Below are positions 686 through 63,497 of a stretch of DNA of 64,000 bases, piece by piece. The notes under the pieces were generated by a model. The model did not search any database. It was given only the letters and a program-made list of their open reading frames with translations, and was not told the DNA's origin. The translations under genes and the position numbers were made by a program. The stretch is from an uncultured Nocardioides sp. GTDB taxonomy: Bacteria > Actinomycetota > Actinomycetes > Propionibacteriales > Nocardioidaceae. The stretch lies in contig CADCUM010000088.1 in the NCBI GenBank assembly GCA_902805885.1, forward strand, positions 1-64,000, written 5' to 3'. The number at the start of each line of letters is the position of its first letter. Positions within the stretch are counted from its first letter, which is position 1.

Positions 686-4689
<4,004 letters not shown>

Positions 4690-36511: not shown

Positions 36512-37699
36512 CTACGTGCGGTCCGCGCCGTTCTCCTGCTGCCGGCCGCCCGTGTCGGACGCCCCGTCCGGCCCGTCCTTGGGCTCGGCCTCCTGTGGTG
36601 CCTCGGGCTCGTCCTTCGGTGGGGCCTTGGGCTCGTCCTTCGGGCGAGCCGTGGGCTCGTCCTCGGGCTGCGCCTTCGGTTGGGCCTTGGGCTGGTCCTT
36701 CGGTTGGGCCTTGGGCTGGGCCTTCGGTTGAGCCGTGGGCTCGTCCTTCGGCGCGGCCTCGATCGCTCCCACCACGACGACGTCCGACCAGCCCTCGTCG
36801 GCGTGCTGGCTCTCCGGCCGGTGCCAGCGGTACTCCGCCGTCTCCCGGACGGTGACCTCGACGCGGGTGATGCCGTCGGGGTCGACGAGCTCACGGGCGC
36901 CCACGGGGCGCCACGCGCCGCCGGGGCTCCGGCTCTCCAGCACGAGCGGGTCGCCGGTGGCGCGGCCGGTCGCGTCGCTCACCCGCCCGGTGATGGTCAC
37001 GGTCGCGCCGGCCGGCACCTCGCCCGCAGCCGCCGCGATCGTGGTGTCGAGCGCGACGCCCTCGAAGTCCCACGTCGTGGCTCCCGAGCGGACGCTGTCG
37101 ATGTTGACGGCGTTGCCGTCGCAGCCGAAGCCCGTGACGACGTAGCCCTCCCCGTCACCGTGCTGCGCTGCGAACTCCCCGGGCGTGGCGCGACCGCCGT
37201 CGGTGACCGGCTGCCGGGTGGCGAGGTCGACGAGGGTCCAGGTGTAGTCGAGCCTCGCGGCAGCGACCTCGTGCCACCCGCCCGCCGGGACCACGGTCTC
37301 CGCCCGACCGCTCCACGCCGTGCCCGGCAGGGTGTCGGGGGTGATCGTCCAGATGTACGACGCCCCGGTGCTGCCGGTCGCGGAGGTCGCGGCCACGGAG
37401 GCGTCGACCCCGGCCAGCGAGCCGAACGGGGTGTAGGGGCCGGAGGCCGTCCCGGTCCCCTGGGGGATCAGGCCGAGCGAGCGGCGTCCCCTGGGGGCGG
37501 CCGCCGGGCCGAGGTTCAGGCGTGTCTGCGGGGCGGCCGTGGGCGCGAAGAAGGTGTCGCACCCGACGTAGGTGACGAACATGGCGGAGCCGCCCGGGCC
37601 AGGGCCGGTCAGGGTGTGGACCTCGTCAGCCTGCGCCGGCGCGGCGAGGGTGCTCGCCCCGGTGACGGCCAGCACTGCCAGCCCGATGCGGAATCGCAC
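36512..37699 (-). CDS. Secreted protein with Pro/Lys/Gln repeat tail
   Basis: 395 residues. GTG at 37699 (AGGGA upstream) starts a signal peptide: basic RFRIG, a hydrophobic stretch and an AAPAQA cleavage site near residue 25. The middle is a globular beta-rich region with two cysteines, ending in an Ig/fibronectin-like segment around VTVRETAEYRWHRPES. Residues about 316-380 are degenerate PKAQ/PKDE repeats, probably extended and perhaps wall-spanning; no LPXTG motif or membrane anchor follows. Function unknown. Confidence 0.75.
   Translation of the reverse strand: MRFRIGLAVLAVTGASTLAAPAQADEVHTLTGPGPGGSAMFVTYVGCDTFFAPTAAPQTRLNLGPAAAPRGRRSLGLIPQGTGTASGPYTPFGSLAGVDASVAATSATGSTGASYIWTITPDTLPGTAWSGRAETVVPAGGWHEVAAARLDYTWTLVDLATRQPVTDGGRATPGEFAAQHGDGEGYVVTGFGCDGNAVNIDSVRSGATTWDFEGVALDTTIAAAAGEVPAGATVTITGRVSDATGRATGDPLVLESRSPGGAWRPVGARELVDPDGITRVEVTVRETAEYRWHRPESQHADEGWSDVVVVGAIEAAPKDEPTAQPKAQPKAQPKDQPKAQPKAQPEDEPTARPKDEPKAPPKDEPEAPQEAEPKDGPDGASDTGGRQQENGADRT
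36560..36754 (-). repeat. 12-bp-unit degenerate tandem repeat in the secreted protein gene
   Basis: Encodes PKAQ, PKDQ, PKDE and similar four-residue units; on the plus strand CCTTCGGTTGGG-type words alternate with CCTTGGGCTGGG. Copy number is likely to vary between strains. Confidence 0.75.
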
Positions 37700-60397: not shown

Positions 60398-61323
60398 CAG
60401 GCGTCCTCTCCGGCGAGCAGGTGGTAGAGCACGGCCATCCGCACGGCCAGCCCGCTGGAGACCTGCTCCAGGATCACCGACTGGGCGGCGTCCGCCGCGT
60501 CGGCGGCGATCTCGAGGCCGCGGTTCATCGGCCCGGGGTGGCAGATGGGCACGTCGGGCTTCAGGCGCGCGAGCCGGTCGCGGGTGAGGCCGTAGCCGAC
60601 GGTGTACTCCCGCGCGCTCGGGAAGTAGCCGCCCGCCATCCGCTCCCGCTGGACGCGCAGCATCATGACCGCGTCCGCCTCGGGGAGCACGGCGTCGACG
60701 TCGTACGACGTCTCGAAGCCGGCCGCGGCCGACCACGTCGCGATGCCGCTCGGCATCAGTGTGGGCGGGGCGACGACGGTGACCCGGGCCCCGAGCCGGG
60801 TCAGGCACAGCACGTTGCTGCGGAAGACGCGGCTGTGGGTCAGGTCGCCGATGATCGCGACGTGCCGGCCCTCGAGCGATCCGAGGCGACGCTGCAGCGT
60901 GTAGGCGTCGAGCAGCGCCTGCGTGGGGTGCTCGTGCATCCCGTCGCCGGCGTTGACCACCGAGGCCTCGACCCACTCGCTGACCTGCTGCGCCGCGCCG
61001 CTGGCGGGGTGGCGGATCACCAGCCCGTCCACACCCATCGCGCAGACGGTGAGCACGGTGTCACGCAGGCTCTCGCCCTTCGACGCGCTCGAGCCCTTCG
61101 CGCTGATGTTGATGACGTCGGCCGAGAGCCACTTGCCGGCGATCTCGAAGCTCGACCGCGTGCGGGTGGAGTCCTCGAAGAACATGTTGACGACCGTGCG
61201 GCCGCGCAGCGCGGGGAGCTTCTTGACCTCGCGCGACTGCACGTCGTGCATGTCGGCCGCGGTCGTGAAGACCTCCTGGATGGCGTCGGCGGACAGGTCG
61301 TCGATGGAGAGCAGGTGCTTCAC
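60397..61323 (-). CDS. pyrB: Aspartate carbamoyltransferase catalytic subunit
   Basis: 308 residues. Carbamoyl-phosphate loop STRTR in [32 protein letters not shown] and the aspartate site [10 protein letters not shown] with HPGPMNRG. Contrast with ArgF in this window, where STRTR is altered. No pyrI is present. ATG overlaps the pyrR stop by four bases. Confidence 0.97.
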
Positions 61324-61976
61324 GCGATCGTCACCTCGTCCACGCCGTCGATCTCGGTGAGCCGCACGCTCACCCGCTCGGTCCGGGCACTGGGCAGGTT
61401 CTTCCCGACGTGGTCGGCGCGGATCGGCAGCTCGCGGTGCCCGCGGTCGACCAGGACCGCGAGGCGTACGGCGGCCGGCCGCCCGAGGTCGGCCAGGGCG
61501 TCGAGGGCGGCTCGGATGGTCCGGCCGGAGAACAGCACGTCGTCGACCAGGACGACCACCAGGCCGTCGATCCCTCCCGGGGGGAGCGACGTCTTGCGCG
61601 ACGCCCGGGTGGGCTGGGACCGCAGGTCGTCGCGGTACATCGTCACGTCCAGCTCCCCCACCGCCAGGGGCGTGCCCTCGACGGCGGCGATCCGCTCCCC
61701 CAGCCGCCGGGCCAGGGGGACCCCCCGGGTGTGGAGCCCGAGGAGCACCAGGTCGTCGGAGCCCTTGTTGCGCTCGAGGATCTCGTGGGAGATGCGGGTC
61801 AGCGCCCGGGAGACGTCACGGGCGTCGAGGACGGTGCGCGGGGCCGGTGGATGGTCGCCGGCATCGCGGGGGGATGCATCGCGGTCGGAAGCATCGCGGT
61901 GGGGAGCGTCGCGGTCGGAAGCATCGCGGTGGGAAGCATCGCGGTGGGAAGCATCATGGACAGGGGCGTCGGACAT
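61320..61976 (-). CDS. pyrR: PyrR bifunctional regulator/uracil phosphoribosyltransferase with repeat N-terminus
   Basis: Senses UMP and binds pyr leader RNA. 218 residues against a usual 180-190. The PRTase fold is complete: [28 protein letters not shown] and the PRPP loop [18 protein letters not shown]. Residues about 8-42 are imperfect repeats of a five-residue unit ([20 protein letters not shown]). The ATG at 61976 has AAGGAGG eight bases upstream, inside the PyrR element, so this extension is translated. First gene of pyrRBC. Confidence 0.93.
61861..61950 (-). repeat. 15-bp tandem repeat in pyrR
   Basis: Six copies of a 15-base unit, plus-strand GCATCGCGGTGGGAA with one to four changes, encode the [HD]RDAS units of the PyrR N-terminus. 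Because the period is a multiple of three, copy number can change without breaking the frame. Confidence 0.85.
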
Positions 61977-61984
61977 GGCCCGGA

Positions 61985-62022
61985 CCTCCTTCTCCGCCTC
62001 ACGGGACGGCTCGTTAAAGGAT
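61985..62022 (-). promoter_or_regulatory. PyrR-binding RNA element covering the pyrR ribosome binding site
   Basis: Same hairpin as before carA, 37 of 38 bases identical: ATCCTTTAACGA, CCGTCCCGTGAGGCGG, AGAAGGAGG. It makes pyrR self-limiting and ties pyrRBC to UMP level. AAGGAGG (61991-61985) is the pyrR ribosome binding site. Confidence 0.9.
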
Positions 62023-62036
62023 GTCGATCGGCGCCG

Positions 62037-62042
62037 ACCCTA
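62037..62042 (-). promoter_or_regulatory. pyrR promoter -10
   Basis: TAGGGT on the minus strand, upstream of the PyrR element. The -35 region would fall inside the first unit of the 31-bp repeat array, so proteins binding the array could affect this promoter. Confidence 0.5.
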
Positions 62043-62045
62043 CCG

Positions 62046-62219
62046 TGCCGACCGGGCACGTCGTTCCCACTGACAGCGCCGACCGGGCACGTCGTTCCCA
62101 CTGAGACGAACCAAGTGCCCGGTCGGCACGGTGAGAACGAACCAAGTGCCCGGTCGGCACGGTGAGAACGAACCAAGTGCCCGGTCGGCAGGGTTGGGAA
62201 CGAACGAGGTGCCCGGTCA
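62046..62219. repeat. Array of six 31-bp repeats, two inverted and four direct
   Basis: Core GTGCCCGGTCGG occurs six times. Two units (from 62046 and 62077) carry it in reverse with CGTTCCCACTGA after it; four units (GAACCAAG or GAACGAGG starting 62108, 62139, 62170 and 62202) carry it forward. Starts are 31 bases apart, except the last step of 32. Units 3 and 4 hold GTGCC-CGGTC-GGCAC, a 5-bp mini-hairpin. The array fills the thiolase-pyrR gap and overlaps the thiolase stop codon. Confidence 0.85.
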
Positions 62220-63497
62220 GCGCTCCAGGATGGCGACGACGCCCTGGCCGCCCGCCGCACAGATCGAGATGAGCGCGCGACCCGAGCCCTTCTGGGCGAG
62301 CAGCTTCGCGGCGACCGGGATGATCCGGCCCCCCGTGGCGGCGAACGGGTGGGCGGCGGCGAGCGAGGAGCCGTTGACGTTGAGCTTGTCGCGGTCGATC
62401 GCCCCCAGCGGCGCGTCGAGGCCCAGCCGCTCCTTGCAGAACACCGGGTCCTCCCAGGCGGCCAGGGTGGCGAGCACCTGCGAGGCGAACGCCTCGTGGA
62501 TCTCGTAGTAGTCGAAGTCCTGCAGGGTCAGGCCGTTGCGCTCCAGCATCCGGGGCACGGCGTACGCCGGCGCCATGAGCAGGCCCTCGTGGCCGGTGAC
62601 GTAGTCGGCCGCTGCGGTCTCGGCGTCGACGAGGTGGGCCAGCACGGGGAGCCCGCGCTCCTCGGCCCACTCGTCGGAGGAGAGCAGCACGACCGAGGCG
62701 CCGTCGCTGAGCGGCGTGCTGTTGCCGGCGGTCATGGTCGCGGCCTCGCCCTTGCCGAAGACCGGCTTGAGCGTGGCCAGCTTCTCCACCGACGAGTCGG
62801 GACGGAGGTTGTTGTCGCGCTCCACGCCCCGGAACGGCGTCACGAGGTCGTCGTGGAAGCCCTCGTCGTACGACCGCGCGAGGTTGTGGTGGGAGCGCGC
62901 GGCGAGCTCGTCCTGCGCCTCCCGGCTGATCCGCCACTCCAGCGCCGTGAGGGCGGCGTGCTCGCCCATCGACATCCGGGTGCGGGGCTCGGAGTTCTGG
63001 GGGATCTCGAGACCGATGTCGCCGGGCCGGATCGCACCGAGCGCCTTGAGGCGGCTCGGGGTGTCCTTCGCGGCGTTGACCTTCATCAGCTTCTTCCGCA
63101 GCCGGTCGCTGATCGCGACAGGGGCGTCCGACGTGGTGTCCGTGCCGCCGGCGACGCCGGAGTCGATGATGCCGAGGGCGATCTTGTTCGCCACCTGGAT
63201 GGCCGCCTGCAGACCGGTGCCGCAGGCCTGCTGGAGGTCCACCGCCGGCGTCTCCGCGGCGAGCCTGCTGCCCAGGACGCACTCGCGCGAGAGGTTGAAG
63301 TCGCGGGCGTGCTTGAGCACGGCCCCGGCGACCACCTCGCCGAGGCGCTCCCCCTGGAGGTCGAACCGGTCGGCCAGGCCGTCGAGGGCGGCGGTGAGCA
63401 TCTCCTGGTTGGACACGCCGGCGTAGACGGTGTTGGACCGGGCGAACGGGATGCGGTTGCCGCCGAGGACGGCGACTGGACGGGTCGAGGCCTGCAT
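62217..63497 (-). CDS. Acetyl-CoA C-acyltransferase (FadA2/FadI-like thiolase)
   Basis: 426 residues. Thiolase fold with nucleophile Cys92 in DLQQACGTGLQAA, the NVNGSSLAAAHPFAATGGR segment (His) and CAAGGQG (second catalytic Cys) near the end. Closest in layout to the mycobacterial FadA2 type, long and without a FadB partner next to it. ATG at 63497 follows GCAGGAG by eight bases; longer frames run into the intergenic region. Divergent from a FabG4-like gene, a pairing known from mycobacteria. Confidence 0.9.
   Translation of the reverse strand: MQASTRPVAVLGGNRIPFARSNTVYAGVSNQEMLTAALDGLADRFDLQGERLGEVVAGAVLKHARDFNLSRECVLGSRLAAETPAVDLQQACGTGLQAAIQVANKIALGIIDSGVAGGTDTTSDAPVAISDRLRKKLMKVNAAKDTPSRLKALGAIRPGDIGLEIPQNSEPRTRMSMGEHAALTALEWRISREAQDELAARSHHNLARSYDEGFHDDLVTPFRGVERDNNLRPDSSVEKLATLKPVFGKGEAATMTAGNSTPLSDGASVVLLSSDEWAEERGLPVLAHLVDAETAAADYVTGHEGLLMAPAYAVPRMLERNGLTLQDFDYYEIHEAFASQVLATLAAWEDPVFCKERLGLDAPLGAIDRDKLNVNGSSLAAAHPFAATGGRIIPVAAKLLAQKGSGRALISICAAGGQGVVAILER

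Follow-up and report, generated by a model that had tools for sequence, protein, structure and literature searches.

In the REPIN/REP-RAYT (REPtron) systems, as set out in the parts of PMC3116915 and PMC3733652 used here, inverted repeats are dispersed through extragenic DNA, mostly between convergent or same-direction genes, and a single-copy nuclease-type gene is flanked by the same repeats, with species-specific types. The antitoxin operators of AbiEi and Rv2827c offer a second comparison. AbiEi occupies a pair of 23-bp inverted repeats separated by 3 bp, in a positively cooperative manner that bends the DNA, and the inverted repeats of Rv2827c are 13 bp apart, one turn more than those of AbiEi (PMC7319586, in the part used here).

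Here we describe an array of inverted repeat units between a thiolase-like and a pyrR-like gene in a 64,000-nucleotide stretch of Nocardioides DNA (the window). Its relatives recall the REPIN arrangement in their extragenic dispersal and in the gene that they flank. Unlike REPIN repeats, the Nocardioides units are non-palindromic and form direct runs at 21-33-bp steps, turned once about a centre and helix-phased, and they are partnered by an AbiEi-like gene whose product, an unrelated enzyme, has a probable Vsr-type fold. The partner protein belongs to the same winged-helix family as AbiEi and Rv2827c, whose operator gaps differ by 10 bp (PMC7319586, same part). Those known operators are promoter-proximal and lie in one operon with the AbiEii toxin, whereas the arrays described here occur genome-wide behind genes, and the Nocardioides protein carries a probable endonuclease fold.

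Results

Architecture of the array at the thiolase-pyrR site

The window array has a left half of two minus-strand units and a right half of four plus-strand units. Each of the six is a conserved block of about 25 bp whose limits were taken from the unit profile across the family. The outermost minus unit (unit 1; 62046..62070, core 62048-62059) spans the usual -35 position of pyrR and is followed by the inner minus unit (unit 2; 62077..62101, core 62079-62090). Across the centre, at a spacing of 36, lies the inner plus unit (unit 3; 62104..62128, core 62115-62126), and beyond it unit 4 (62135..62159, core 62146-62157), unit 5 (62166..62190, core 62177-62188) and the outermost plus unit (unit 6; 62198..62222, variant core 62209-62220). 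Five of the six cores are exactly GTGCCCGGTCGG. The sixth is GTGCCCGGTCAG, and its TCA (62217-62219) is the TGA stop codon of the gene on the minus strand at 62217..63497 (open reading frame and gene model), which we take to be a thiolase from its sequence and which has the array at its 3' end. Downstream lies the pyrR-like gene (61320..61976, minus strand), and a TAGGGT box at 62037-62042 abuts the array. Same-strand steps are 31 on the minus side and 31, 31 and 32 on the plus side; the plus half has a Tandem Repeats Finder score of 190.

The sequence-only reading had described six copies at a 31-bp period over 62046-62219, two facing one way and four the other, the first over the likely -35 of pyrR and the last overlapping the thiolase stop. 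The number, the orientations and both overlaps stand, but one copy is the variant core rather than an exact one, the period is 32 at one step, and the blocks of conserved sequence reach 62046-62222, slightly past that end. The exact 12-mer core has 14 copies in the 3.1-Mb, 77.7% complete assembly of the window, compared to none for the reversed control, which excludes a chance origin of the core. Units also occur as pairs or arrays elsewhere in this assembly (L035, L036, L039, L041, L043, L044 and L045).

A family of arrays behind Nocardioides genes

On searching the window's own genome and related ones, as had been proposed from the sequence, the unit recurs conserved in relatives and not as random sequence: two type-A cores at a 31-bp step (at most two mismatches) were found in 31 of 215 Nocardioides genomes, and the reversed control in none. 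The search of the order, which beyond Nocardioides covered the type-A sequence only, matched 19 of 293 genomes and three of 37 genera, with one two-mismatch match in each of the two outside genera. When the genome_contigs collection was scanned for the exact pattern, 66 stretches matched, every one titled Nocardioides. Pairs of the type-B/C unit at 32 bp were present in 78 of 209 genomes, at most 89 pairs in one genome, and the reversed control gave one match each in four genomes.

The layout was studied in 85 arrays in 35 locus groups (17 of them with a single array), drawn from the loci of the window's assembly, the exact-pattern stretches and the window; genes were called by our own script, not a standard caller, and the loci of related species, which are not independent, were collapsed in some tests only. 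Each unit joins the conserved block, which reads AGCGCGASGAAGTGCCCGGTCRGCG in the most frequent type, to 6-7 bases that vary. Both unit directions are present in 55 of the 85 arrays and a single direction in the other 30. Minus units lie left of plus units in 52 of the 55, and the remaining three each have one weak out-of-order core match. Since the array script adds single partners on the expected side only, neighbouring cores are the cleaner measure of polarity: with at most one mismatch, 38 pairs run minus-then-plus and none plus-then-minus, and with two mismatches allowed the counts are 64 and 12.

The neighbouring genes, both visible for 82 arrays, are convergent in 48 cases, same-direction in 34 and divergent in none, compared with 94, 341 and 78 among 513 background gene pairs from the same loci, array-bearing pairs included (depletion of divergent genes, p 5e-6; p 0.003 when the 35 locus groups are counted). 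The TGA stop of the flanking gene falls at one fixed internal place in 51 of 113 outer cores, and 101 of 113 outer array ends are within 17 bases of a stop. Polarity is imperfect in the 34 same-direction settings: more units face the upstream gene in 21 arrays, the numbers are equal in eight, and more face away in five. Judged by sequence, the window array is a member of a Nocardioides family of arrays right behind genes and is not mainly a pyrR feature.

Helical phasing

An inner half-site search of the 31 array genomes, in which any gap of 2-32 bases was permitted, gave 56 central palindromes in 19 genomes, all of them 34-37, 44-46 or 54-56 long. Dropping the TT/AA bases gave a looser pattern that was found in 27 of 391 genomes; the off-phase lengths 33, 38, 39, 41, 43, 47 and 52 were among its matches, and its reversed control also matched, in five genomes. 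From locus to locus the centre spacing takes the values 15, 26-28, 36-38, 46-48, 50, 57, 67-68, 78 and 88, most often 27, 37, 47, 57, 68 or 78. For the 34 locus-collapsed spacings the resultant length R is 0.91 at 10.4 bp, a value not matched in 100,000 random draws; for the 63 uncollapsed spacings, which include the off-phase values 14, 30, 43, 45, 50 and 102, it is 0.74 (58 of 63). The 32-bp type has 13 centre spacings, at 26-27, 37-38, 57 and 68.

Of 203 neighbouring pairs, 179 have a direct step of 31 and ten a step of 32, a count biased by the 31-bp step built into the searches that selected most loci. Linkers between loci are 33% identical, with 130 distinct among 182, while the step holds at 31. 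As read from the spacings, one DNA face is kept across the array centre. The earlier suggestion of cores on one DNA face, suited to cooperative protein binding, is strengthened in that, at many loci, the distance between the two inverted halves is quantised in helical turns. This quantisation favours a protein assembly on one DNA face over an RNA hairpin.

An AbiEi-like gene flanked by arrays

Thirty of the 31 array genomes were compared at the pgl-rbpA locus, whose neighbours look to us like housekeeping genes. An AbiEi-like gene is present there in 27 and absent in G005, G080 and G003, and an array stands beside the gene in 27 of 27. Twenty genomes carry a gene of about 330 codons, 43-100% identical to that of L090 (N. 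pini, 3276-4268), with a minus array at its left and a plus array at its right; the copy in G191 looks truncated. In the seven others, the window's assembly (L202) among them, a 38-40% relative is flanked by arrays of differing sequence at 31-32-bp steps, and the right flank in L202 carries one unit. At least three gene types (A, B and C), each with its own array sequence, occur at this site beside the conserved RbpA (L181-L204).

A further sixteen AbiEi-like loci were compared, leaving out L211, L214, L216 and L230 (at pgl-rbpA) and including L226, where the neighbour is again a gene of rbpA size. Arrays flank the gene on both sides in 11 of them, on one side in three and on neither in two, at steps of 21-22 or 31-33 bp; one array scan of these loci was run at a looser threshold without a control of its own. 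Paralogue arrays with 21-22-bp steps, two helical turns and not three, were seen in L217, L220, L222, L223 (1187-1326 and 2337-2473), L227, L228 and L229. L213 and G061:C7:133486-134703, the latter from match coordinates alone, are two more candidates for a gene enclosed by arrays, which in these cases lie about 1.1 kb apart. A lag scan of the pgl-rbpA gene flanks found lag 31 in 33 of 54 sides and lag 32 in 20 of 54, compared with 0.8% and 0% of 390 control flanks (maximum for any lag, 4.4%). At the other gene loci, lag 22 was found in 10 of 34 sides.

PADLOC AbiEi models matched all four proteins scanned, with best E values of 8e-18 (L207) and 6e-11 (the type-A protein of L090). With Pfam, three of five proteins matched AbiEi_4, one of them above the cut-off, and two had no match at all. 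The Vsr-type REase of MTES_1575 (PF18741) matched two of the five weakly and below the Pfam cut-off (E 2e-4 for the type-B protein of L202, 3e-4 for L207), and did not match the three closer type-A proteins scanned (L090, L144 and L147). Most of 43 aligned AbiEi-like proteins hold an [ILV]-D ... E-[YF]-x-G-x-x-x-H motif, with EYFG in place of EYDG in 16 of 21 type-A relatives. The protein is a probable combination of an AbiEi-like winged helix and a Vsr-type endonuclease fold. The original MTES_1575 is a large multidomain conflict protein (PMC3710099, in the part used here), whereas the protein considered here is a stand-alone chain of about 330 residues, flanked by arrays. AlphaFold2 models of six sequences had a mean pLDDT of 36.7. 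No sequence match was found in the PDB for the AbiEi-like protein, nor in NCBIfam for the two proteins scanned; the type-B protein had one weak partial match among plasmid records, from Tsukamurella, and no relative was confirmed in viral contigs.

Coupled change of array unit and protein

We compared distances at 26 pgl-rbpA loci (G137 was left out), taking only the non-coding bases of the rbpA-side flank. Flank distance tracks the divergence of the AbiEi-like proteins (r 0.82), whereas it does not track that of the RbpA proteins (r 0.09); the partial correlation given RbpA is 0.82 and was reached in 0 of 2000 permutations. Within the 19 type-A relatives alone, the flank-protein correlation is 0.65, that with RbpA 0.39 and the partial correlation 0.58 (0 of 2000 permutations). 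In six named species, the dispersed arrays agree with the gene-flanking unit of the subfamily to which they belong at 29 of 29 loci, and with that of the species itself at 18 of 29, the two subfamilies having been grouped by eye from consensus units.

The two kinds of pair were compared in the genomes with a count for each, a set without G130, G135 and G136. Where pgl-rbpA holds a type-A gene, type-A pairs are the more numerous in 17 of 17 genomes, compared with two of seven where it holds a type-B or type-C gene (p 5e-4, with relatedness not removed and gene-flanking pairs counted). The two exceptions are the window's assembly, which has type-A arrays but only a type-B gene (39% identical), and G110, which is 100% complete and shows the same mismatch with 15 type-A pairs. 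A close gene (at least 53% identity) is present in 20 of the 31 array genomes and in one of 31 others; the latter, G156, carries variant 31-bp arrays. In G005, no relative of the gene was found at E 1e-45.

The contact with pyrR

The thiolase-pyrR site was compared in the 30 genomes with the closest PyrR proteins, the query being the part of PyrR beyond its repeat-bearing N-terminal extension. The thiolase gene has a match in 29 of them, the window's own counted, and none in G080. A clear array follows the thiolase stop in seven of the 30 genomes (window, G110, G007, G131, G091, G235 and G159), traces are seen in G152, G017, G030 and G179, and none is visible in the other 19. A convergent gene comes next after the thiolase, before pyrR, in 20 of the 30. 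In G110, G007 and G131, which have both this gene and a clear array, the array separates the two stop codons; in four genomes (window, G091, G235 and G159) it lies directly before pyrR. The window lacks the convergent gene, and this is why its array touches pyrR. At the empty site of G075, the thiolase stop leads straight into the pyrR TAGGGT box, whereas in the window the array sits between them. The contact between array and pyrR looks like a local accident.

In our own reading, the TAGGGT of the window is a -10-like box of pyrR; a consensus scan of the window site found no promoter. Some array-free relatives retain the same TAGGGT and pyrR leader. The leader, GACATCCTTTAACG... (about 61980-62042 in the window; also in L153, L159, L168, L174 and L175), is well conserved with or without an array, several of these sequences have the TAGGGT box, and it is likely a regulatory leader. 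Within pyrR, a 15-bp tandem repeat of 6.3 copies (61861-61955) gives five-residue repeats in the N-terminal extension, and elsewhere in the window, 36570-36759 is marked by strong tandem repeats nested within one another (periods 24, 48, 60 and 84 bp).

Discussion

Five features are read from sequence: a layout common to the family, phasing to the helix, anchoring on stop codons, arrays flanking the protein genes, and coupled change of unit and protein. The window array is probably one of many dispersed cognate binding arrays of an AbiEi-like/Vsr-fold family in Nocardioides, with a putative boundary role. We are fairly confident that the arrays are cognate sites of this protein family; a boundary function behind genes is a tentative proposal, against which we lean slightly. 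The AbiEi-like protein would bind each unit of about 25 bp, and same-facing units would be bound on one DNA face at three-turn steps, or at two-turn steps in the 21-22-bp paralogue arrays. The two array halves may face each other across a centre that would grow only by whole turns. The cooperative binding of AbiEi, and the one-turn difference between its operator gap and that of Rv2827c, fit this picture. Against the cognate reading stand the type-A arrays with a type-B gene in the window's assembly and in G110, and the lack of a match in G005 at E 1e-45. An array bound in this manner might serve as a boundary behind genes by hindering transcription that leaves the flanking genes. Against this role, a tight roadblock at the outermost unit would be expected to stall the polymerase before the stop codon.

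An operator or promoter element of pyrR, which the title of the sequence-only reading had made of the array, is very improbable. The outermost minus unit does span the usual -35 position, and arrays lie right before pyrR in the window, G091, G235 and G159, but the same array family occurs at 34 other locus groups and a clear post-thiolase array in just 7 of 30 genomes; the family sits at gene 3' ends, and the pyrR contact follows from the missing convergent gene. A role in RNA, in which inverted arrays would be transcribed as hairpins that end convergent transcripts and the repeats would have grown by slippage, has more in its favour and is still improbable. The arrays are found between convergent genes, and the whole window array can form one long hairpin (-102.6 kcal/mol, z -6.5). 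The earlier proposal that small hairpins end thiolase transcription fares worse: shuffled sequences fold as well as the run of four same-facing units (z +0.65), and the window array showed no site resembling a terminator. There is a slight excess of arm pairing within loci over that between them (0.867 and 0.835, p 0.02, array genomes; in three palindrome genomes 0.82 within loci and 0.75 when re-paired within genomes, p 0.05), for which reason some RNA role is possible. Yet quantisation of the centre by the helical turn has no evident reason in RNA, and 30 of 85 arrays have a single direction, 12 of these being halves around the pgl-rbpA gene. Rfam gave just three matches in the 2 kb around the window array, to microRNA families and far below gathering scores.

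The arrays could also be miniature mobile elements, that is, element ends copied about by the nuclease-fold protein that survive only behind genes, where they are harmless, and have no host role. We regard this as unlikely, at about one chance in four. Orthologous thiolase sites differ in whether they carry an array, yet the end of the thiolase stays the same; unit subfamilies are common to dispersed and gene-flanking arrays; a single array is all that 17 of the 35 locus groups contain; and REPINs show a like pattern (PMC3116915, in the part used here). On the other hand, the gene holds one place, pgl-rbpA, in 27 of 30 genomes; exact stop-codon anchoring and phasing kept despite diverged linkers suggest upkeep in place; and no clear target duplication was seen by eye at the one site compared. 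Plasmid and phage records held no DNA match to the window array. Slightly less probable still is a selfish or domesticated 'array-maker', a protein that would recognise its own phased arrays and make or spread new ones right behind stops. The array set would then turn over as specificity drifts, and the arrays might hold the nuclease in a harmless bound state, as a DNA-based antidote.

With regard to described systems, the earlier statement that the array fits no known CRISPR, REP or IS pattern holds as far as tested, with nothing above threshold in Rfam and no Y1_Tnp. CRISPR was rejected on layout: the arrays turn direction at the centre and their linkers are 6-7 variable nucleotides. The Y1 (HuH) transposase PF01797 of REP-RAYT systems was found in none of 62 genomes (31 with arrays and 31 without), and the control matched five of 14 named genomes. 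By eye, the unit profile has no conserved internal palindrome; one array sub-type holds GGGCACGAAGTGCCC. A cognate gene flanked by the repeats and dispersed extragenic copies are both found, with a different gene family, and an AbiEi-type winged-helix protein, as in the AbiEi operators, is present (PADLOC AbiEi, four of four). The literature searched, with most subscription journals and preprints outside it, gave no account of such arrays in Nocardioides. We place the system as a new kind because both the Y1 transposase and the palindromic unit of REP-RAYT are missing and no description was found in that literature. The comparison points to an undescribed repeat-plus-protein system, and its best reading is that arrays and protein are analogous to REPIN-RAYT with an unrelated enzyme.

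The arrays of Nocardioides give a clear sequence-level sign of a protein assembly that would measure helical turns at bacterial gene 3' ends, with a candidate protein named. They also provide a handle on AbiEi-like proteins with nuclease folds and no toxin partner in view. If the preferred reading of cognate arrays is true, they would represent a second, unrelated solution to the REPIN-RAYT arrangement, and would supply a wealth of natural specificity variants in which to follow the joint change of a DNA-binding protein and its sites in the genome.
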